The notes beneath the pieces were generated by a model. That model saw nothing but the letters and a program-made list of their open reading frames with translations, had not been told where the DNA came from and made no database searches. Below, piece after piece: positions 13,126 through 22,020 of a DNA stretch of 64,000 bases. Numbering within the stretch: position 1 is the stretch's first letter; every line of letters starts with the position of its first letter. A program made the translations under genes and the position numbers. The DNA is from Anaeropeptidivorans aminofermentans (GTDB lineage: Bacteria; Bacillota; Clostridia; Lachnospirales; UBA5962), in assembly GCF_940670685.1 (NCBI RefSeq), contig NZ_OW711693.1, positions 744,001 through 808,000 on the forward strand, read 5' to 3'.

Positions 13126-13225
13126 AATATCTGGTTTCAGAGAAAACTTCTTCTTTTTAATAGGGCAGAGGAGGTCAAGACTATAAAGAATACCCATGAT
13201 ATACTGTCCTTATAAGGAGGTAGAT

Positions 13226-14128
13226 ATGATGTATGCATGGGAAGCGATACAAAAAACAATAAATTATATTGAAGCTCATATCAGCAGTGAGATTCAAATT
13301 GAAGAACTTTCGAAGGAGGCTTCACTTTCGCCTTTTTATCATCAAAGGCTGTTTTCACGCCTTGTAAAAAAACCGGTAAGAGAATATATCAAGCTTAGGC
13401 GCTTGGCTAAGGCTTGTAAATTGCTTGATAACAGGCAATGCCGCATTTTGGATATTGCCCTTGATTGCGGATTCGGAAGCCACGAAACATTTACCCGGTC
13501 TTTTAAAGAAGCCTATGGAATAACCCCTGAGCAATACAGGGAAAAGCCGGTGATGCTGAATCAATTTGATAAGCCTGATTTAATGCTTAATTATGCGATG
13601 ATTGATGAAGGCGTTCCTTTGATAAGTGACGGGCTTGTACTGGAGTTTAACCGTAAAACCCTTAAGGAACCGGTTTTATTTATGGGTGTAAAAGGGATTA
13701 TCCCCATTGAAGGGCAGATGCCTTTAGGAGAATCTACGGGACTTGATATGCCCGGAGCGGTATGGGAGCGGTTTCATCGGGAGAAAGTAAACATGCCCCG
13801 GATACCCTGCGGAAGAGAAATAGGCGTAGCCTATATGGGCGATGCCCCGGAAGGAAGCTTTACTTACTTTGCCGGAGGCGAGGTAAAAGCAGGAGCGGAA
13901 AATGCCGATTACGCTACATGGAGCCTTCCGGCAAGGGAATATGTAATCTGTGGATTTGAAGCGGAAGATTTTCAGACCCTTGTGACAGAAGCCCTTAATA
14001 AAGCCGTTAAATACAGCGTATTATGGCTTGAAAAGCATCATCTTACAATGGAAGTTTATTCTCCTGAGATTTATTATGACAGCTCCCCGGAAAGAAACTA
14101 TATGGAGCTGTGGATGCCGGTATCTTAG
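13226..14128 (+). CDS. AraC-family regulator with GyrI-like effector domain
   Basis: About 300 residues. Residues 1-105 form an AraC/XylS double helix-turn-helix (IEELSKEASLSPFYHQRLF and ILDIALDCGFGSHETFTRSFK); residues ~125-300 form a GyrI/effector-binding domain (EVKAGAENADYATWSLPAREY, then ELWMPV at the end). This is the SoxS/Rob-like layout with a small-molecule sensor at the C terminus. The frame opens at 13196, but AAGGAGG at 13214-13220 sets the start at 13226 (or 13229). Its target genes are not evident; the neighbouring dga-type cluster is convergent and ends at a shared terminator. Confidence 0.9.
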   Translation: MMYAWEAIQKTINYIEAHISSEIQIEELSKEASLSPFYHQRLFSRLVKKPVREYIKLRRLAKACKLLDNRQCRILDIALDCGFGSHETFTRSFKEAYGITPEQYREKPVMLNQFDKPDLMLNYAMIDEGVPLISDGLVLEFNRKTLKEPVLFMGVKGIIPIEGQMPLGESTGLDMPGAVWERFHREKVNMPRIPCGREIGVAYMGDAPEGSFTYFAGGEVKAGAENADYATWSLPAREYVICGFEAEDFQTLVTEALNKAVKYSVLWLEKHHLTMEVYSPEIYYDSSPERNYMELWMPVS

Positions 14129-14133
14129 AAAAG

Positions 14134-14167
14134 CAAAAAGGATTGTTCCGGGGAACAATCCTTTTTC
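14134..14167. terminator. Bidirectional terminator
   Basis: A perfect 15-bp stem (AAAAAGGATTGTTCC / GGAACAATCCTTTTT) lies between the convergent AraC and dgaF genes, with T runs on both strands. Confidence 0.9.
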
Positions 14168-14169
14168 TT

Positions 14170-14895
14170 TTATAATAGTTTTTCGAATATTTCCTTTATT
14201 CTTTTAACATCGGTAATCTTTGTTTTTCCGCTTTCCTTGTCTATGATTGAGGAATATACATGGACGATGACTTTAGGAACATTTTCTTCTATGCATATTT
14301 TAAGAATTTCCTCAATGTTTTCAAGGTCTATTCCCCCGGTAGGCTCAAGAATAAAATCTGATTTTCCGCAGGCTTTGGCAACGAGCTTAAATTCCTCTAT
14401 TGTTTTAAGGCCCCCCATAGGGAAGAATTTAAGGGAATTTCCCCCCATCTCCTTAACAAGGGCTATTGCCGTCTCTACAGGAATATTGCCGTCGGGAAGC
14501 TTTGTGCTTTCAGGGCCTGTGCTGATTTTCACAAGACCGGGGATTCCCGAAGGAGACACAAGGGCGTTTATATGGGCATCATTTCCAGATACCTTTTCTC
14601 TTGTGATTCCGACATAGGGGAAAACCTGATTTACATGGTTTGGCTTAAGTGCTCCGGAAAGTGCCGCAACCATAAGCCCCTGGGCAGGGTTTCCTGCGCC
14701 AAGGCCGATGGAAATATTATTTTCAAGGGCGGCTTGATATTTTTTCATATCTGAAAGGGCTTCGTCAAAATTTGGATAATTGCCTGAAAGAACGCCTATT
14801 ACGGCATTTTTATCCATTGCCTCATAGATTTCCAAAGCGTTTTCAATATCTTTTGTGAGACAGTTTAAACAAAGTCTGTTTTTATAGTAATTCAT
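14170..14895 (-). CDS. dgaF: KDGP aldolase, DgaF family
   Basis: A 241-residue class I aldolase of the 2-dehydro-3-deoxy-phosphogluconate aldolase family found in D-glucosaminate-type operons; splits KDGP to pyruvate and glyceraldehyde 3-phosphate. A TIM-barrel pattern is seen: AVIGVLSGNYPN, ISIGLGAGNP, LVSPSGIPGLVKISTGPES, GNSLKFFPMGG (with the lysine probably forming the Schiff base) and FILEPTGGIDLEN. Start has GGAGG eleven bases upstream. Last gene of the minus-strand cluster, two bases after dgaE, ending at a strong terminator. The exact substrate (stereochemistry) is inferred from the Salmonella Dga pathway. Confidence 0.9.
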   Translation of the reverse strand: MNYYKNRLCLNCLTKDIENALEIYEAMDKNAVIGVLSGNYPNFDEALSDMKKYQAALENNISIGLGAGNPAQGLMVAALSGALKPNHVNQVFPYVGITREKVSGNDAHINALVSPSGIPGLVKISTGPESTKLPDGNIPVETAIALVKEMGGNSLKFFPMGGLKTIEEFKLVAKACGKSDFILEPTGGIDLENIEEILKICIEENVPKVIVHVYSSIIDKESGKTKITDVKRIKEIFEKLL

Positions 14896-14897
14896 AA

Positions 14898-15986
14898 TTA
14901 GTCCTCCAGTATTTCTTTAAGCTTTTCTATAATTACTGGAATATCTCTTTTGCTCATAGGTCTTGGGTCAAATTCAAAATATCCGGAGGAGGCATGATGG
15001 CTTCTTGTATAAATAGCAGGATTGCCGTTTTTAAGAATATTAACGATTTCCACGGCGCTTTTTCCCGTAAGGCTTTTATCAGGGATCACTCTAAGCCTTA
15101 CAATAGCCCGGCCCATAGAATCGGGTATTTTTGATACCTTTATTCCGTTTATGCCGTTTAAATAATCTTCAAGAGGCGCAAAGAAGTCTTCGCCGGAAGG
15201 ACTGGCTTTGTCGGCATATTCCTCAATGGCCTTATAAAGCCCCATAATGGTTTCTTTTCCTACTTTAAAGGGGCGTCCCACGCCTTTCGACTGTTGATAG
15301 CACCAGTCAATATACGGCTGATTTCCTACGACACAGCCGGAGGTAGGACCGCCGAAAGCTTTCGCACCGCTGTAGATAACCATATCAGCCCCGAGAGCCA
15401 GATATTTTTTAAAATCTTCTTCCGCTGCGGCGTCTATTATAAGGGGTACAGCTTTTGCTTTGGCGACAGAGATGATATCTTCCAATGAAAGCATTCCGTC
15501 CTGAACGGCGTGATGGCTTTTCACGTAGAGAATTGCCGCTGTTTTTTCAGATATGGAAGCCTCGAATACGTCTTTTTCACATTTATTGGATACGCCTGCC
15601 ATAACAGGCTTTCCGCCGCCCAAAGTAATCATTTGGGCGATTTCTGCTCCGAAGTCTACGTTGTGGCCCATCTGAAGAAGGATTTCATTTTTTTCCGTTA
15701 AGGGATTGGGTATTTTTTTTATTTCAAGAGGGTTTCCCTTTGTTATTACTGCGGCTATCGATATAACGATGCCTGAGGAAGCTCCGCAGGTAATAAATGC
15801 ATCCTCTGCACCGGCATACTTCGCTATTTTTTTACCGGCTTCTTTTATAAGCTCATTCATATCGAAATAATTGGAGGCACCGTAATTCATAGCCTCAATG
15901 ACCCCTTCTGAAAGGGTTGAAGAGCCCAAATAAGTCATTCTTCCGCTGCAGTTTATCACTCTTTTTACATCTAATTCTTTTTCCAT
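14898..15986 (-). CDS. dgaE: PLP-dependent ammonia-lyase, DgaE family
   Basis: A 362-residue aminotransferase-fold (SelA-like) enzyme. The cofactor lysine lies in YSGAKAFGGPTSG (around residue 220), preceded by the aspartate in LIIDAAAEED that holds the pyridine nitrogen. The C-terminal RSHHASSGYFEFDPRPM is typical. In Salmonella, DgaE turns D-glucosaminate 6-phosphate into KDGP plus ammonia, which DgaF then cleaves. The gene starts four bases after DUF4310 with AGGAG overlapping that gene's end. Family assignment is firm; the substrate could be another 2-amino-2-deoxy-aldonate phosphate. Confidence 0.9.
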   Translation of the reverse strand: MEKELDVKRVINCSGRMTYLGSSTLSEGVIEAMNYGASNYFDMNELIKEAGKKIAKYAGAEDAFITCGASSGIVISIAAVITKGNPLEIKKIPNPLTEKNEILLQMGHNVDFGAEIAQMITLGGGKPVMAGVSNKCEKDVFEASISEKTAAILYVKSHHAVQDGMLSLEDIISVAKAKAVPLIIDAAAEEDFKKYLALGADMVIYSGAKAFGGPTSGCVVGNQPYIDWCYQQSKGVGRPFKVGKETIMGLYKAIEEYADKASPSGEDFFAPLEDYLNGINGIKVSKIPDSMGRAIVRLRVIPDKSLTGKSAVEIVNILKNGNPAIYTRSHHASSGYFEFDPRPMSKRDIPVIIEKLKEILED

Positions 15987-15990
15987 ATTG

Positions 15991-16677
15991 CTACGCTCCT
16001 ATTCCGAGAGTAGTAAGGCCCATAAGAAAGGCAATATATCCCACAATCATTGCGCCTAAGATTGCACCGCCGATAATAGGAGATTTACGTACGTGGAATA
16101 TAATAGCTCCAATCATTGCGCCTACGCCTACGTAAAAATCGAATTGAGCCGCCATAATCAGTATAATAGGGCCAAACCATTCGCCGACGATATTACCTGC
16201 ACCTACCATGATATCAGTACCCATAGAGCCGTATCCGCCGGGCATGAGCTTACGGATCAGCAGTATGATTGCACCGATGGCAAGGCCGATTGCGGCACCG
16301 GTTAAAAGGCTTAAAGGAAAGTTCTTAACAAGGTTTTCATAGCCCATGGAAAGGAAAAGGGCAGGAAGGCCTGCGCCTACGCCGGTCATAATAGAGCCGC
16401 CGATGTCAAGGATTCCTACAAGGGGACCTTCCAGGATACGGGCAAGAAGAAAACCGCCTGTATAGCCGATTAACGCCGCATAGCTTCCTGTTTTAAGGGC
16501 TTCGCTTAACATAACGGTAACCGATGTGGTTGAGAAATGGCCTGTGTTATATTGGATAAATATGGATGTTCCGGCAAAAACACCGGCGCATATCATCGCC
16601 ATAAATATAAGAAATGCTTTTTCCGTAAGCATAAAGCTTTCAATGGAGCTTCTTTTGTTTTCTGTAGTAGAGTTCAT
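15991..16677 (-). CDS. DUF4310 family membrane protein
   Basis: A 228-residue, glycine-rich integral membrane protein with about six or seven hydrophobic segments (near residues 18-38, 55-80, 88-110, 120-145, 155-180, 185-200 and 203-226). It belongs to the uncharacterised DUF4310 family, always seen beside DUF4311 and DgaE/DgaF homologues. AGGAGG precedes the ATG. The membrane location and company of catabolic genes suggest half of a transporter for the cluster's substrate; no transport motif of a known family is recognised. Function is inference. Confidence 0.85.
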   Translation of the reverse strand: MNSTTENKRSSIESFMLTEKAFLIFMAMICAGVFAGTSIFIQYNTGHFSTTSVTVMLSEALKTGSYAALIGYTGGFLLARILEGPLVGILDIGGSIMTGVGAGLPALFLSMGYENLVKNFPLSLLTGAAIGLAIGAIILLIRKLMPGGYGSMGTDIMVGAGNIVGEWFGPIILIMAAQFDFYVGVGAMIGAIIFHVRKSPIIGGAILGAMIVGYIAFLMGLTTLGIGA

Positions 16678-16740
16678 TTTTATCCTCCTGTATTATCTAT
16701 CGTAATTCTGCTTTAGCAATATTTCCATAAAACTAAAACT

Positions 16741-17445
16741 TTAGAAAGGAATCTTTCCTCTAAAATAAGCAATTGCAAAGAACATAATTGCCACAAAGAG
16801 CATCATAAAAAGACTTCTTCTGCTCTTTAATCCGCTGTCGGCAACGCTTTGGCCTATGAGAATACCGAGAACACAGCCGGGGGTAGCGTTTCCCATTATG
16901 TATTGAGCAAGAACACCGAATATGGTTGCAAACGTTCCCTGCCATTTTCCGGCACTTAATGCAGAAAGCCAGAATGCCACAGGAAGAACGGGGGAAAGAA
17001 TCAAATCCGCCGCCGGAGAAACCACCTTTTCTGCTATCAGAGACATGGTTTTTGGTATTAAGCTTGCAAGGGTATTTAAAACCGTTACTAAAACGGCACC
17101 GATTGCCATACCGCTTAACATCATTTTATAAGGGTTTTTAGAAGCCTCTCTGTCTTTTGCCGTAAAGTTTGAAAGACCTGCCGACCACTGGGGAATAATA
17201 CGGTGCAGTACGTCGGAGCTTAAAGAACCTGTTCCTACGACGGAACCTGCGGAACTGAAGAAAAATCCCAAGCCGTAGCTGAAATGGGAAAGGGGGTCGC
17301 CGTTGCAGGCGTTCATTTCGCCTAAGGTTCTGAAAGCGCCCATACCTTGAATTTCAGGGGCGTGATACATTCTCGCTGCGCCGCCGGCGGCTCCGCCTCC
17401 TGCAAGAGCGCCAACAATTATAGATTTTATTACAAGATCAATCAT
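16741..17445 (-). CDS. DUF4311 family membrane protein
   Basis: A 234-residue polytopic membrane protein of the DUF4311 family. It begins with a glycine/alanine-rich helix (VGALAGGGAAGGAARMYHA), has a conserved-looking loop (FRTLGEMNACNGDP, SSAGSVVGTGSLSSD) and four or more further helices. Strong ribosome site AAAGGAGGAGG. It precedes DUF4310 by 63 bases; the pair probably forms one membrane complex. The polar loop with GDP and GTG turns could be a substrate site. No biochemical role is known to me. Confidence 0.85.
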   Translation of the reverse strand: MIDLVIKSIIVGALAGGGAAGGAARMYHAPEIQGMGAFRTLGEMNACNGDPLSHFSYGLGFFFSSAGSVVGTGSLSSDVLHRIIPQWSAGLSNFTAKDREASKNPYKMMLSGMAIGAVLVTVLNTLASLIPKTMSLIAEKVVSPAADLILSPVLPVAFWLSALSAGKWQGTFATIFGVLAQYIMGNATPGCVLGILIGQSVADSGLKSRRSLFMMLFVAIMFFAIAYFRGKIPF

Positions 17446-17608
17446 TTTTGTCCTCCTCCTTTGAGTGCGGGGAATAAGCTTAAATAAACGGGGATATACT
17501 TATGAAACTTGAAAACTGCCTTTGGTTTTTTCAGTTTCATAAGGCTTTCTTAATACAGAACAAATAAACTTGATGCTTTTTAAGTTTATTTACCCTATCT
17601 TCCGTCCT
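17446..17608 (-). other. Intercistronic spacer with two hairpins
   Basis: The longest gap inside the cluster after the regulator. Two inverted repeats are present: ATGAAACT / AGTTTCAT around 17500-17544 and AAATAAACTT / AAGTTTATTT around 17563-17592. They could act as an RNA processing or attenuation site that sets different levels for the soluble (upstream) and membrane (downstream) genes. Confidence 0.45.
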
Positions 17609-17926
17609 TTACAGCTTATTTTCCCCAGTTGATATTATCTTTATTTCTACTTCCGCAGTAACTGAAATTCGATGAAATTCATGGGTTACGGGAAGTATTA
17701 ATCCTAAAAAGCGTTTTACAGTTTCCGTTTTTTCTTCCTTATCGATGAAAAGGGCCGTTACGTGAAGCTCCACTAAATAGCCGTCAGTTTCCTTATAGGC
17801 TTCGTTTCGTATATTTTTGAAAACGTCTGTCAGAGCTTCCCTGTGGCTTTTTCCCAGACCGGAAACTTTTAATGATTTATGGATGGTTTTTAAAACATTT
17901 TCGCTACTCAAATTATTCACGCCCAT
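17609..17926 (-). CDS. DUF4312 family protein
   Basis: A 105-residue soluble protein of the DUF4312 family. It has an alternating pattern of beta strands (YLVELHVTALFID, ISVTAEVEIKII) and one amphipathic helix, suggesting a small alpha/beta fold. Overlaps the upstream SFCGS gene by 14 bases and has no strong ribosome site, so translation is likely coupled. Role unknown; it co-occurs with DUF4310/DUF4311/SFCGS. Confidence 0.82.
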   Translation of the reverse strand: MGVNNLSSENVLKTIHKSLKVSGLGKSHREALTDVFKNIRNEAYKETDGYLVELHVTALFIDKEEKTETVKRFLGLILPVTHEFHRISVTAEVEIKIISTGENKL

Positions 17927-18281
17927 ATTTTTTATAATATGCTTCGGTTATGGCTTTTCCCAATTCTTCCGTATCCATAAAGCCAAAGCCTAAAGCAACG
18001 TATCCGTTATTAACTGCGTTTACGCCGGATACGACGGTTCTTAAATCGTATATTGCGTTATATCCATATTGATTTTTTGCAGCTAAAGCACCGCCGCCGC
18101 CGCCGCCGCAGAAGCTTATGCCAAGGTCTGCATTTTCATCATGCATTACCTTGCCAAGCTTCATGTCTGCGCCTATTCCGGGAATGACGATGGCTTCCCC
18201 GCCGGCGGCCTCAATACCTTTTGCCACGTTCTGGCCTTTTCCCATACGGTGTGCAATCACTATTTTTACCTTTTTTTCCAT
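17913..18281 (-). CDS. SFCGS glycine-rich family protein
   Basis: A 122-residue soluble protein named for its motif, here ISFCGGGGGGALAA at about residues 55-68. The N-terminus (KVKIVIAHRMGKGQNVAKGIE) resembles the first strand and P-loop-like turn of a Rossmann-type or PTS EIIB-like fold, but the usual EIIB cysteine after strand 1 is absent; the only candidate nucleophile is the cysteine in SFCG. The start overlaps the PRD gene stop by one base (TAATG). A carrier or binding role in the cluster's uptake step is conceivable but unproven. Confidence 0.85.
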   Translation of the reverse strand: MEKKVKIVIAHRMGKGQNVAKGIEAAGGEAIVIPGIGADMKLGKVMHDENADLGISFCGGGGGGALAAKNQYGYNAIYDLRTVVSGVNAVNNGYVALGFGFMDTEELGKAITEAYYKKYGRE

Positions 18282-18682
18282 TATAATTCCTCACCTTTCT
18301 CTTCTTTTAATCTAAGCTGCATTGCGCCTATATGTGTTGCTATTAAAGCTTCTTCGTTATCCGGTATTTTTCTGCCGTACTGGCCTTCCAGATGAGAAGC
18401 TATTTTTTTTGCAAGTTCAAGAGCTTCAGTGCTGATTTCATCTGCAAAACTCATATCCATATCCACAAACTCACCTTTTTTTAATCTGTTATAAAGGGTG
18501 ATGAGATGCGTTACAAATACGGGGCCTGCAACAGAGTCGAATACAACGCCTTCTTTTTCACAAAAATTCATAATATCTGTGAGCTTTTTTTCAAGGGCCT
18601 GGATTTCTTCTTTTTCTATATTCCACTCCTTTGTTCTTTCGTCAATTACTTTGCAAATTTCCTTATAATCAAATCTTTTCAT
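18281..18682 (-). CDS. Stand-alone PRD domain protein
   Basis: A 133-residue protein consisting of essentially one PTS regulation domain. Both PRD histidine regions are visible: FVTHLITLYNRL (about residue 55) and ATHIGAMQLRL (about residue 115). In antiterminators and activators PRDs are phosphorylated by HPr or EIIB. Here it has no RNA- or DNA-binding domain, so it may sense or buffer phosphoryl groups within this system. AGGTG precedes the ATG. Tightly coupled to the SFCGS gene. Confidence 0.82.
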   Translation of the reverse strand: MKRFDYKEICKVIDERTKEWNIEKEEIQALEKKLTDIMNFCEKEGVVFDSVAGPVFVTHLITLYNRLKKGEFVDMDMSFADEISTEALELAKKIASHLEGQYGRKIPDNEEALIATHIGAMQLRLKEEKGEEL

Positions 18683-18788
18683 TTTTTCACCTATGTATCG
18701 TAAGAATTATGGCATATGAAGCTGCCGTATTGCCGTTTTAATGCTATGAAGCAAATAATAATGTTTATATCGTTCATAAGCTTGCTTT

Positions 18789-19901
18789 TTAGTCTATTTG
18801 GAGTAAGCTTCCAAATTTATCTGTTGCATATAAGATATTGAAAGAAATAGGGGAAGAAAATACTTCTTCGCTGCTTTCCTCATAGACTGTTTCTTTGTTT
18901 ATAAGTTCAACCACTGCTAGGGAAGCCTTGTTTCCTTCTGAAATATCTGTATTATTGCCTGTAATAAAGCAAGGGTTTATAGTCACAGCTTTTAATACAG
19001 CTTCCTTTTCCATGCCGCATATAAGGCATTTTGTCATTACCTCGGCAAGGCTTTTAACTTTTGTTCCGAAATTTCTCGCATGAATATCGCTTGAAATAGT
19101 GAAGGGAGCAAGCCCTTCTTTAATGGCCTTTTCAGCAGTTTTAAAATCGAAGCTTGCAGCGCCGTGGCCAACGTCATATAAGACGCCCTCTTGATATTTA
19201 TTCTCTACAAGCTTTTTTACCTTGCCGTAATCGTCTAAAATACCGCCTTTTTTGCCGTGGAAAATATGGGTAATAATATCGCCTCTTTGAAGCAAAGGCA
19301 GAATTTCCTCAAGGGCCGGCGGAGCATTGCCCACATGAATCATTACGGGAAGATTTACTTTTCTTGCGAAATCGATTCCCCTTTTTACGGCTTCCATGCC
19401 TAAAGAGCCTACAACGCTTCCGCTTGCCCGAAGCTTTATGCCTACGATGGTTTCTTTAAATTCCCTAATGGTATTGAAAAGCTTTTCTTCATTAAAATAG
19501 GCAGTGTCAGAAAGTTCTTTACCATCTTTTGTAAGCCCTATTTTAGAATAATTAATAAAAGCTTTTACATTTGTAGATGATTTTTCTATGACCTCTTTAT
19601 AAAACTCAGGGTAATCGTCGCAGCCGGTGCTTCCTGCATCTATAACGGTGCTTACCCCCTGACGGATACCTATTTTGTCGGCAGATAGGCCAAGGGCGGT
19701 TTTTTCAGGAAAGGCATGTACATGGATATCTGTAAAAGAAGGAACAATAAGCTTTCCTTTACAGTCGATAGTTTCATCGCAGAGGATATCCTTTGCGTCT
19801 CCCACAAAGATAATGATGCCGTTATCTATAACGATATCCGCAGCTTTTCTGCTGTTTTCGGCAAGGTTCAGGATAGTTCCGTTTATAAGCTTTATTTTCA
19901 T
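18789..19901 (-). CDS. Amidohydrolase/deacetylase-family metallohydrolase
   Basis: A 370-residue TIM-barrel amidohydrolase (dihydroorotase-like/EF_0837 type). Metal ligands are visible: TDIHVHAF near residue 60, a probable carboxylated lysine region (VGIKLRASGS), MIHVGNAP, ITHIFHGK and the final aspartate in TISSDIHARN. Family members cleave cyclic amides or remove N-acyl groups. In this cluster the enzyme probably generates the free amino acid-sugar that DgaE then deaminates. The ATG at 19901 is preferred over a GTG at 19907 because AAGGAG is correctly placed for it. About 100 bases upstream of the PRD gene. Confidence 0.87.
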   Translation of the reverse strand: MKIKLINGTILNLAENSRKAADIVIDNGIIIFVGDAKDILCDETIDCKGKLIVPSFTDIHVHAFPEKTALGLSADKIGIRQGVSTVIDAGSTGCDDYPEFYKEVIEKSSTNVKAFINYSKIGLTKDGKELSDTAYFNEEKLFNTIREFKETIVGIKLRASGSVVGSLGMEAVKRGIDFARKVNLPVMIHVGNAPPALEEILPLLQRGDIITHIFHGKKGGILDDYGKVKKLVENKYQEGVLYDVGHGAASFDFKTAEKAIKEGLAPFTISSDIHARNFGTKVKSLAEVMTKCLICGMEKEAVLKAVTINPCFITGNNTDISEGNKASLAVVELINKETVYEESSEEVFSSPISFNILYATDKFGSLLQID

Positions 19902-20047
19902 TTTCACCTCTCCTTTATTTATTTTTTATATAGCAGAATTCATTTCAATCCGAAGCACCTGTCCCTTAAAACGTAAAATATCCTCTGATATTTTGCAGCA
20001 TTTTGTCACTTCGGTTTCTAAGTAATTCAGCTATAGCCGATAAAATC

Positions 20048-20185
20048 TATAGTAAACTTAAAGTAAAATGGGCACAAAACCGCATATTTACATGGTCCCT
20101 CAAATGTAGTATTTCCGAAGGGAATCCATGTTTTTGGGATTTTAGCAAATAGGTTTTGCTGCTTCTTTATAAGAAATTTACTATA
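20048..20185. repeat. TIR mosaic element, 138 bp
   Basis: Left end TATAGTAAACTT, right end AAATTTACTATA, with a TTTCCGAAGGGAA hairpin inside and the CTTCTTTATAAGAAATTT right arm. It lies between the BglG-type regulator gene and the amidohydrolase gene, 17 bases from the regulator's stop. Same internal layout as 28500-28638. Confidence 0.8.
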
Positions 20186-20202
20186 ATTTGCAGCTTCTTA
20201 CT

Positions 20203-22020
20203 TTAAGGTTTATGGCTATAGTAGGTTTTTATTGAATTTATATCATATTCCAAAACAGCTTTATGATGTTTTGAATAAAGAGGGCTTATGACTTCATATA
20301 TTTTCTTTTCTCTTCCTCTGAGATTTTCAGGGTTTACCTTTTTCATAGGGCCGGTATCATCTCTTTGCATACTCATCATAAGATGTATCGTAAGGCTTAT
20401 GAAAACCTCATTATCCACTTCTCCAAGGGCTTTGCCCATGGCCTGAACGATATTTGCACAGTCTGAAAGAAGCGCCATGTATTCGAAAAAGCCTTCGGAC
20501 CTGCCCTTTGAAGGGGGTGTGTCATTGATTACCGCATTGCTTTCAAGGAGGCTTTTTACTTTTTCTATATCTTCATCAAGAAGCAAAGGTGTAATTCTAA
20601 TGACAGGGATATAATCATGATAAAAATAAGTGGTTGAAAGGATGAAATCCGCATCATTTATCCCTAAGGCCATGGCTTCTTGCATATGGATAGCCCCTTT
20701 TACCTCGATTTGAGGAAACCGTCTTGAAACATTGGTTTTTAGAAGCTCTGCGCTTCCCTTTCCCGTGGTGCAGACAATATAGGCTTTTTTCTTGGGGCTT
20801 TCCGAATACATTTGGGCCGCCAGATACATCACGAGATAGCCTGTTTCATCGTCGGAGATTTCACCTAAAAATGGACGGAAAATAAATATTTCGTCTTTGC
20901 AGTCCATAAATAAATCGGGAAACCGTTCAAAAATCATTTTCTTTAGAGGATTGCTTTCTTCTATGCCTTTTTTGCGTCTTTCCGCCGAAACGTATAAGTG
21001 GGTGCGTATATTTTGAAAAAGCTCGTCGTTTCCTAAAAAGTTATAATTTCTTCTTTTTGACATATTTTTAAGAAATACAGCGATGGCGCTGTCTATGGAG
21101 CCTTCTTCCTGGGTTTGGGTATAGTAGTTTCTTCTTGTATTCTGATAGTGGGAGGAAAGATACATAATTTCTTCTTCTGAAAGATTAAATTCCTCCGTCA
21201 GATACCGCATTACCATCAGAGCCCAGCCGGATTTTATTTCAGGTACTTCTGAGGCCTTTAAAGAATGCCCCTTTTGAAACCTTGATACAGAAATTGCTGA
21301 AAGAATGATGATGAAGCTGTCTTCATGCCTGTACATATGCTGGGAGAGCCTGCTGTTCAGGTCCTTATCCATGGTGTAAAGGCGTTCGGCTATTTCCTTA
21401 ACGGTTAAAGGAGAGAGAACCGCCAAGTATTCGTCAAGCATGGCCTTTTTTTCGCTGCTGAGATAAATAAGCTGCTTTTCCTGCTGCAAAAGGCCTATGA
21501 CGTCGTAATGCTCGAAGCTTTGGAGTATTAAAGAAGCCATTGCCTCCCGTATATTTTCTTCCTTTCCGTAAAGGGCGGCTCCTGTTTCCTTATTGATTGA
21601 CGCTTTAAGGTGAAAGGTCTTAAGCCATTTTTTTACAAAAGGGAAATCCCTGTAAAATGTTGCCCTGCTGATACCTACTTTATTGCTGATTTTTTTAAGG
21701 CTGATGCCGTTTTCATTTACAAAAAGCAAGGTAAGAATAAGAAGAATCCTGCTGTATTGGTTTAAAGGCATCAGGCTTGGCCTGATATCTTTAATAAGCT
21801 CTTTTGCTTTTTCTATAGCACTTTCATCTTCAAAGGCAATGGTGTTTTCAGAATATTCCAGGCTTAATCTATTTTCCTTAGCCCATTCCTTAATGGCTTT
21901 TAAGTCTGCGTACACAGTTCTAAGGGCGATTCCTAAATCACTTGAAAGCCTTGAAGCTTCCGACGGAACGCCTGAAATAATCCTTTCTACAATTTTCTGC
22001 TGTCTTTGTGATAGCTGCAT
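20203..22020 (-). CDS. BglG-type PRD transcriptional regulator
   Basis: A 605-residue regulator. Order: HTH (residues ~1-60, SSDLGIALRTVYADLKAI), second HTH of Mga type (~90-150, ISLKKISNKVGISRATFYRDF), PRD1 (~185-290), PRD2 (~300-410, with FRPFLGEISDDETGYLVMYLAAQM), an EIIB-like domain with the active-site-like start IVCTTGKGSAELL (~418) and a C-terminal PRD-like part with TIHLMMSMQR instead of an EIIA domain. Such proteins are DNA-binding activators controlled by PTS phosphorylation. It probably controls the cluster downstream. AGGAG lies ten bases before the ATG. The missing EIIA distinguishes it from MtlR/LicR. Confidence 0.88.
   Translation of the reverse strand: MQLSQRQQKIVERIISGVPSEASRLSSDLGIALRTVYADLKAIKEWAKENRLSLEYSENTIAFEDESAIEKAKELIKDIRPSLMPLNQYSRILLILTLLFVNENGISLKKISNKVGISRATFYRDFPFVKKWLKTFHLKASINKETGAALYGKEENIREAMASLILQSFEHYDVIGLLQQEKQLIYLSSEKKAMLDEYLAVLSPLTVKEIAERLYTMDKDLNSRLSQHMYRHEDSFIIILSAISVSRFQKGHSLKASEVPEIKSGWALMVMRYLTEEFNLSEEEIMYLSSHYQNTRRNYYTQTQEEGSIDSAIAVFLKNMSKRRNYNFLGNDELFQNIRTHLYVSAERRKKGIEESNPLKKMIFERFPDLFMDCKDEIFIFRPFLGEISDDETGYLVMYLAAQMYSESPKKKAYIVCTTGKGSAELLKTNVSRRFPQIEVKGAIHMQEAMALGINDADFILSTTYFYHDYIPVIRITPLLLDEDIEKVKSLLESNAVINDTPPSKGRSEGFFEYMALLSDCANIVQAMGKALGEVDNEVFISLTIHLMMSMQRDDTGPMKKVNPENLRGREKKIYEVISPLYSKHHKAVLEYDINSIKTYYSHKP

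Follow-up and report, generated by a model that had tools for sequence, protein, structure and literature searches.

An operon of Anaeropeptidivorans aminofermentans with a candidate phosphorylating permease for amino-sugar acid catabolism

D-Glucosaminate is imported in Salmonella by DgaABCD, a PTS of the mannose family, and the phosphate site of the Salmonella lyase DGL contains a cluster of three arginines (Arg301/332/346) (PMC9529869). The ong pathway of Pseudoalteromonas acts on N-acetylglucosaminate (PMC9537276). TIGRFAM groups a further set of families as the "EF_0829-EF_0839 / AHA_3910-3917" cluster, defined by members of TIGR03577-03583 plus selA_rel (TIGR01437). This set is annotated just as conserved hypothetical, with no function given and no mechanism proposed.

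The window analyzed here, a stretch of 64,000 nucleotides from A. aminofermentans (contig NZ_OW711693.1), contains an operon built from the same gene families and is a divergent member of the set. Every family of the TIGRFAM set was matched. TIGR03577, TIGR03581 and TIGR01437 exceed their cut-offs, while the TIGR03578/79/80/82/83 matches lie under the NCBIfam cut-offs, and PF14187/14188/14189/00874/01979 were found over the Pfam cut-offs. The cluster as such is therefore already recognized, a point of difference from the original prediction; what is new here is the set of functions proposed for its parts. Literature searches turned up no publication about DUF4310/4311/4312 or the SFCGS family. 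The nine genes at 14170-22020, all on the minus strand, have the order and domains first described, and the operon does end at one strong terminator:

20203..22020, minus strand: R, regulator of 605 aa, Mga-HTH/PRD (Pfam PRD 60.9 bits, Mga 44.5, HTH_11 37.2; two PRD matches)
18789..19907, minus strand: A, amidohydrolase/deacetylase-family metallohydrolase, probable N-deacylase (PF01979 over cut-off)
18281..18682, minus strand: P, small stand-alone PRD protein, candidate phosphocarrier (PF00874 45.7 bits)
17913..18281, minus strand: S, SFCGS protein, RpiB/LacAB-like predicted fold, invariant Cys58 (TIGR03577 169 bits, over cut-off)
17609..17926, minus strand: 2, DUF4312 protein, dodecin-like predicted fold (PF14189 37.1 bits, over cut-off)
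16741..17445, minus strand: 1, DUF4311 membrane protein (PF14188 267.6 bits)
15991..16677, minus strand: 0, DUF4310 membrane protein (PF14187 226.3 bits)
14898..15986, minus strand: E, DgaE-family PLP ammonia-lyase (TIGR01437 454 bits, over cut-off)
14170..14895, minus strand: F, KDGP aldolase, DgaF (NF047796 347 bits, cut-off 300)
14135..14166, minus strand: bidirectional intrinsic terminator (14-pair stem, 4-nt loop, T run on both strands)

Genes described as mostly overlapping or a few bases apart are so at four of the eight junctions (E-F 2 nt, DUF4310-E 4 nt, SFCGS-DUF4312 14-nt overlap, PRD-SFCGS 1-nt overlap), but not at the remaining four (63, 106, 163 and 295 nt). An EIIB-like motif in R, CTTGKGSAELL, was spotted by eye.

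The same gene set was found together in 84 distinct loci, a recurrence that places the grouping far from chance. Five of the genes, PRD-SFCGS-DUF4312-DUF4311-DUF4310 (PS210), form a near-constant block, with the gene order kept in nearly all of these loci. The position of the amidohydrolase and of DgaE-DgaF varies relative to PS210 (before, after, around, or elsewhere in the genome); together, amidohydrolase-DgaE-DgaF (AEF) make up a second block that can change place. Some PS210 loci lack AEF, and there SFCGS still accompanies the membrane genes; a natural PRD-SFCGS fusion is present at one locus (L012). A genome scan confirmed at least 470 SFCGS-encoding stretches. A role for PS210 other than uptake, such as secretion, sensing or storage, is very improbable: the fold of DUF4311/4310 is unmatched, which leaves room for such a role, but the block is tightly linked to a catabolic pathway, and in a sample of 398 Bacillota genomes KDGP aldolase occurs in 7/7 genomes with DUF4310, compared with 13/398 overall.

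The enzymes of the AEF block are recognizable to different degrees. The amidohydrolase scores 339 bits with NF006689 and 303 bits with TIGR03583, both under the curated cut-offs, and has solved relatives (2ogj, 8wzy, 2ics). A place for it as deacylase ahead of DgaE, as originally suggested, also fits. DgaE exceeds the cut-off of the subfamily TIGR01437 with 454 bits, but its 385 bits with the DgaE equivalog NF047797 stay below the cut-off of 600. Its active-site residues are present, including the His pair and PLP Lys (H158, H159, K209) and R297, R328 and R342, which match Arg301/332/346 of Salmonella DGL in an alignment to 7lc0. The three arginines are invariant in relatives, including kinase-linked DgaE; they do not separate kinase-linked from PS210-linked enzymes, as had been considered, and are therefore silent on the timing of phosphorylation. 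DgaF exceeds the cut-off of its family model NF047796, with 347 bits. N-acetylglucosaminate or another N-acyl amino-sugar acid is the probable substrate.

A Pfam search of the nine proteins gave no match at E<1 to a domain of the EIIA/B/C, ABC, symporter or kinase kind. The predicted absence of a kinase or known permease thus holds for this operon; it does not extend to all relatives, since some AEF cassettes are kinase-linked. Within three genes of DgaE, a PfkB or FGGY kinase gene is present in 0/58 cassettes directly joined to PS210, and in 23/26 loci without a direct AEF-PS210 join. The evenly drawn sample of 398 Bacillota genomes gave the same contrast (0/6 for PS210-joined cassettes, 6/6 for the others). 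The DgaE tree requires at least five switches between the kinase-linked and PS210-linked states, and an independent-pair test on this tree was one-directional but small (p about 0.06). At one locus (L156), an SSF sodium symporter, an FGGY kinase, DgaE and DgaF occupy the place of PS210. Because PS210 in its relatives takes the position in which an importer and a kinase for sugar would otherwise be required, it probably both imports and phosphorylates an oxidized amino sugar. The presence of a kinase in AEF cassettes that lack a directly joined PS210 is the best evidence for a phosphorylating permease.

Linkage to general PTS components points the same way. The HPr gene adjoins the operon in 18/84 loci, nine of which carry EI as well, and a Bartonella plasmid has the arrangement PS210-AEF-R-(HPr-EI fusion), with no further EII or sugar kinase annotated on that plasmid. 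In the proposed survey of co-occurrence with PTS genes, EI was present in 49/49 PS210-module genomes searched; in the Bacillota sample, EI was found in 7/7 module genomes and in 157/398 overall. The genome from which the window is taken encodes one EI and several HPr, so that phosphoryl donors for a PTS-dependent system are available. Genomes with EI/HPr and no other EIIs were also considered as evidence and rejected: two MAGs lack three EII families, but a Dha PTS is present in one of them, and both assemblies may be incomplete.

HPr and EI could serve the PRD regulators alone. PS210 would then be a non-phosphorylating transporter of the free sugar acid, driven by another energy source; control by HPr would run via the PRD proteins, and the DgaE product would be phosphorylated by a general KDG kinase whose gene lies at another place in the genome. 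Such a regulatory role, under phosphorylation by the PTS, is the normal one for PRD domains, and a KDG kinase encoded elsewhere could supply the phosphate. The ong pathway offers a precedent, combining a symporter, a deacetylase, a PLP deaminase and KdgK (PMC9537276). We consider this alternative rather unlikely: it leaves kinase genes missing beside all 58 PS210-joined cassettes while they are present in nearly all others, and for control alone, dedicated HPr and EI genes, or a fusion of the two as in Bartonella, would be costly.

The two soluble proteins at the head of PS210 offer candidate relay residues. The small PRD protein exceeds the PF00874 cut-off (45.7 bits) and belongs to a family with a solved member (3nuf). 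Among 83 relatives, H59, R66, E110 and H117 are its only strictly invariant positions. SFCGS has a single invariant Cys, Cys58 (83 sequences), aligned with the CGTG Cys of RpiB/LacB. The EIIB fold envisaged for SFCGS was not found; the model of a relative matches RpiB 3k7p (Z 11.9, rmsd 3.6, 128 residues), and an RpiB/LacAB fold is predicted instead. This fold, together with the Cys alignment, would also suit an isomerase or epimerase of the RpiB/LacAB kind with a sugar phosphate as substrate; PS210 would then combine a transporter with a catalytic step in the use of some unusual amino-sugar acid. We regard that as improbable, as SFCGS accompanies the membrane genes rather than AEF, also where AEF is missing, and scores 12.8 bits with LacAB_rpiB (PF02502), against a cut-off of 24.7.

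AlphaFold gave a confident model of a DUF4311/DUF4310 pair. Against the PDB, the model gave no Foldseek match at E<=0.001 and a best VIA Z of 4.0, with no EIIC among the matches listed, and the pair appears to have no recognizable solved relative; this outcome does not exclude an EIIC relative all the same. In Pfam, the P, S, 2, 1 and 0 proteins contain no recognizable EIIA, EIIB or EIIC domain (E<1). The lack of an EIIC-like match in both comparisons also suits a transporter that does not phosphorylate. The model of a DUF4312 relative resembles dodecins (Z 7.6), over 65 residues only.

Taking these results together, we favor, with moderate confidence, PS210 as the uptake system of the operon, most likely a PTS-type phosphorylating permease that feeds A, DgaE and DgaF. 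The original idea of DUF4310/4311 as a new, possibly phosphorylating permease with small partners gains from three independent lines, the kinase exclusion, the HPr/EI linkage and the invariant PRD histidines, and loses from the missing EIIC match and the predicted non-EIIB fold of SFCGS. From the gene content, block structure, residue conservation and predicted folds, as well as the kinase and HPr/EI patterns, we infer the transport, phosphorylation, relay order and exact substrate as follows. DUF4311 and DUF4310 would form the membrane part. EI and HPr would pass a phosphoryl group to a His of the small PRD protein, and from there it would move onward, probably via the SFCGS Cys, so that the sugar acid would enter the cell as the 6-phosphate. 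The amidohydrolase would strip the N-acyl group, converting N-acetylglucosaminate-6-P to glucosaminate-6-P; DgaE would eliminate ammonia from the latter to give KDPG, and DgaF would cleave KDPG to pyruvate and glyceraldehyde-3-P. Four of the five PS210 families lack a function, being DUFs or glycine-rich proteins, and the kinase-exclusion pattern assigns the block a testable job. If correct, this scheme would explain the use of oxidized amino sugars (e.g. from LPMO attack on chitin) by many Firmicutes and some enterobacteria.

Compared with Salmonella dgaABCDEF, the window operon shares the DgaE-family lyase, the DgaF aldolase and the expected 6-phosphorylated intermediate, but has PS210 in place of the PTS DgaABCD, and an extra amidohydrolase. 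With the Pseudoalteromonas ong pathway it has in common an amidohydrolase-superfamily deacetylase, a PLP deaminase and KDPG as product, whereas OngB is of the D-aminoacylase type and the SSS symporter and KdgK kinase of that pathway (PMC9537276) have no counterpart gene in the window operon. The yhf operon of E. coli appears to be a sister system. As in PS210, it encodes a small PRD protein (YhfY), an SFCGS-like protein (YhfU; hhalign E 8.7e-8 with SFCGS) and a membrane protein (YhfT), and its other products include Php, a member of the amidohydrolase superfamily, and the PLP-type enzyme YhfS, but no DUF4312. YhfT is a single protein of 434 aa; profile comparison showed no significant similarity between it and DUF4311/4310, and gave no support to the idea, plausible by eye, of a DUF4311-DUF4310 fusion (P 0.2-0.4). 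We tentatively suggest, with less assurance than for an uptake role, that PS210 may represent a new class of PTS permease, with the PRD protein as EIIA, an RpiB-fold Cys protein as EIIB and the non-EIIC pair DUF4311/DUF4310, and with yhf (YhfY-YhfU-YhfT) as its second branch. If so, the PRD domain would hand on phosphate instead of serving as a target of regulation, a class would be added to the PTS permeases, and the uncharacterized yhf operon of E. coli K-12 would have its first hypothesis.

The original prediction described nine same-strand genes ending at one terminator, and the window sequence and domain matches confirm them, on the minus strand. Their tight spacing holds in part: four junctions are overlaps or gaps of 2-4 nt, and the remaining gaps measure 63, 106, 163 and 295 nt. 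The operon and its surroundings contain:

13196-14128, convergent with the operon: gene for an AraC-type regulator, which has its bidirectional terminator in common with the operon
14135-14166: strong bidirectional terminator, operon end
14170-22020, minus strand: nine-gene operon
19929-20035: inverted repeat of 27 nt, imperfect (78%), within the 295 nt that separate the regulator and amidohydrolase genes; a possible operator or antiterminator site

These genes come from the same families as TIGRFAM's EF_0829-EF_0839/AHA_3910-3917 cluster, which is already known, with its function undescribed. Several window proteins fall under the NCBIfam yet over the Pfam cut-offs, and the operon therefore belongs to a divergent branch.

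Of the 398 Bacillota in the sample, 7 have a DUF4310 match above the cut-off. Related loci were taken from an SFCGS scan (80 named loci kept of at least 470 confirmed stretches) and the first sample (six), giving 86 loci, 84 of them distinct. Among the matches listed, the order small PRD protein (P), SFCGS (S), DUF4312, DUF4311, DUF4310 (PS210) is constant with few exceptions. The amidohydrolase (A), DgaE (E) and DgaF (F) genes vary in position relative to the regulator (R): 24 loci read RAPS210EF and 32 RPS210AEF, and others carry AEF ahead of R or elsewhere in the genome. In the vicinity of PS210, four listed loci lack AEF and one keeps F alone; the genomes of all of these encode DgaE at a second site. 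PS210 and AEF are thus two units. Natural fusions join P to S (L012, 11134-11883) and A to P (L073, 790-2289). In another locus (L157, 9390-10217), a KDGP aldolase gene without DgaE adjoins ABC transporter genes.

For 84 DgaE genes we recorded whether a PfkB or FGGY kinase gene lay no more than three genes away and whether PS210 was directly linked, counting as not directly joined both kinase cassettes that a PTS EIIC-MupG set separates from an upstream PS210 and those adjoining a separate PS210 operon. PS210 occurred without a kinase in 58 cases, a kinase without direct PS210 in 23, neither in 3 and both in none. Across well-supported branches of the DgaE tree, this state underwent five or more changes, and independent-pair tests ran in one direction throughout, with few pairs (p about 0.06). 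In the evenly drawn 398-genome sample, the kinase was absent from 6/6 PS210-linked EF cassettes and present in 6/6 others. In a non-PTS version of the pathway (L156, 9358-15379), the genes for DgaE and KDGP aldolase are clustered with those for a sodium:solute symporter (SSF) and an FGGY kinase. The simplest reading of these results is that PS210 performs the jobs of importer plus kinase. Four loci (L134, L135, L136, L160) hold AEF with a PTS EIIC, a small membrane protein, a MupG-like hydrolase and a PfkB kinase, and could act on an oxidised disaccharide without phosphorylation of its acid end.

Among the 84 distinct loci listed, 18 have an HPr gene adjoining the operon, and nine of these also carry EI. 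In most Paenibacillus loci these PTS genes precede R, and in Brevibacillus, Anoxybacillus, Amazonia and Mobilisporobacter they follow F; the linkage therefore arose more than once. On a plasmid of the bat isolate Bartonella sp. HY761 (L158, NZ_CP104889.1, 7630-17420), P-S-2-1-0-A-E-F-R is followed by an HPr-EI fusion gene, and the plasmid annotation contains no other EII or sugar kinase; the system adjoins a type VI secretion cluster. EI was found in 49/49 module genomes searched, and in 7/7 DUF4310 genomes of the sample vs 157/398 overall (p 0.0014). Both linkage and EI presence could reflect control of the PRD regulators, but the kinase pattern favours phosphorylation over such control alone. 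As for the predicted new, possibly phosphorylating permease, a transport role for PS210 is very probable, and we lean slightly towards a phosphorylating, PTS-type system.

H59, R66, E110 and H117 are the only strictly invariant positions in 83 P proteins, a family that includes 3nuf (L. casei LSEI_2718); they match the pattern of phospho-histidine sites in PRDs. S has an invariant Cys58 aligning with the CGTG cysteine of RpiB/LacB. An AlphaFold model of the natural P-S fusion in L012, read through to DUF4312 (pLDDT 90), comprises a PRD that matches 3nuf with Z 15.1, along with domains resembling RpiB (Z 11.9) and dodecins (Z 7.6). A relay from PRD to SFCGS is a tentative proposal. Window DUF4311 and DUF4310, modelled by AlphaFold as one chain with intergenic stops read through in frame, formed a compact pair (pLDDT 88, pTM 0.86) for which structure searches listed no usable solved match; the complex is only a prediction, because artificial joining could favour contact.

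Window DgaE keeps the His pair, the PLP lysine and the three phosphate-site arginines, which are placed at the phosphate of Salmonella D-glucosaminate-6-P ammonia-lyase (PMC9529869). The amidohydrolase is a metallohydrolase of the deacetylase family, and a Klebsiella relative has an extra lactonase-family gene. In the Pseudoalteromonas ong pathway, symporter uptake precedes conversion of N-acetylglucosaminate to KDPG by a deacetylase, a PLP deaminase and KdgK (PMC9537276). On these grounds, the substrate is most likely N-acetylglucosaminate or a closely related compound.

The E. coli yhf operon (L107, 3033-8423) parallels P-S-2-1-0, with a small PRD protein (YhfY), an SFCGS-like protein (YhfU) and a membrane protein (YhfT). 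Comparison established no link between YhfT and DUF4311/4310. YhfU matches the SFCGS profile (E 8.7e-8) and has a conserved Cys in GAC.TG (L107-L112), and in Bacillota relatives (L108-L112) the genes for the PRD protein, YhfU and YhfT are adjacent.
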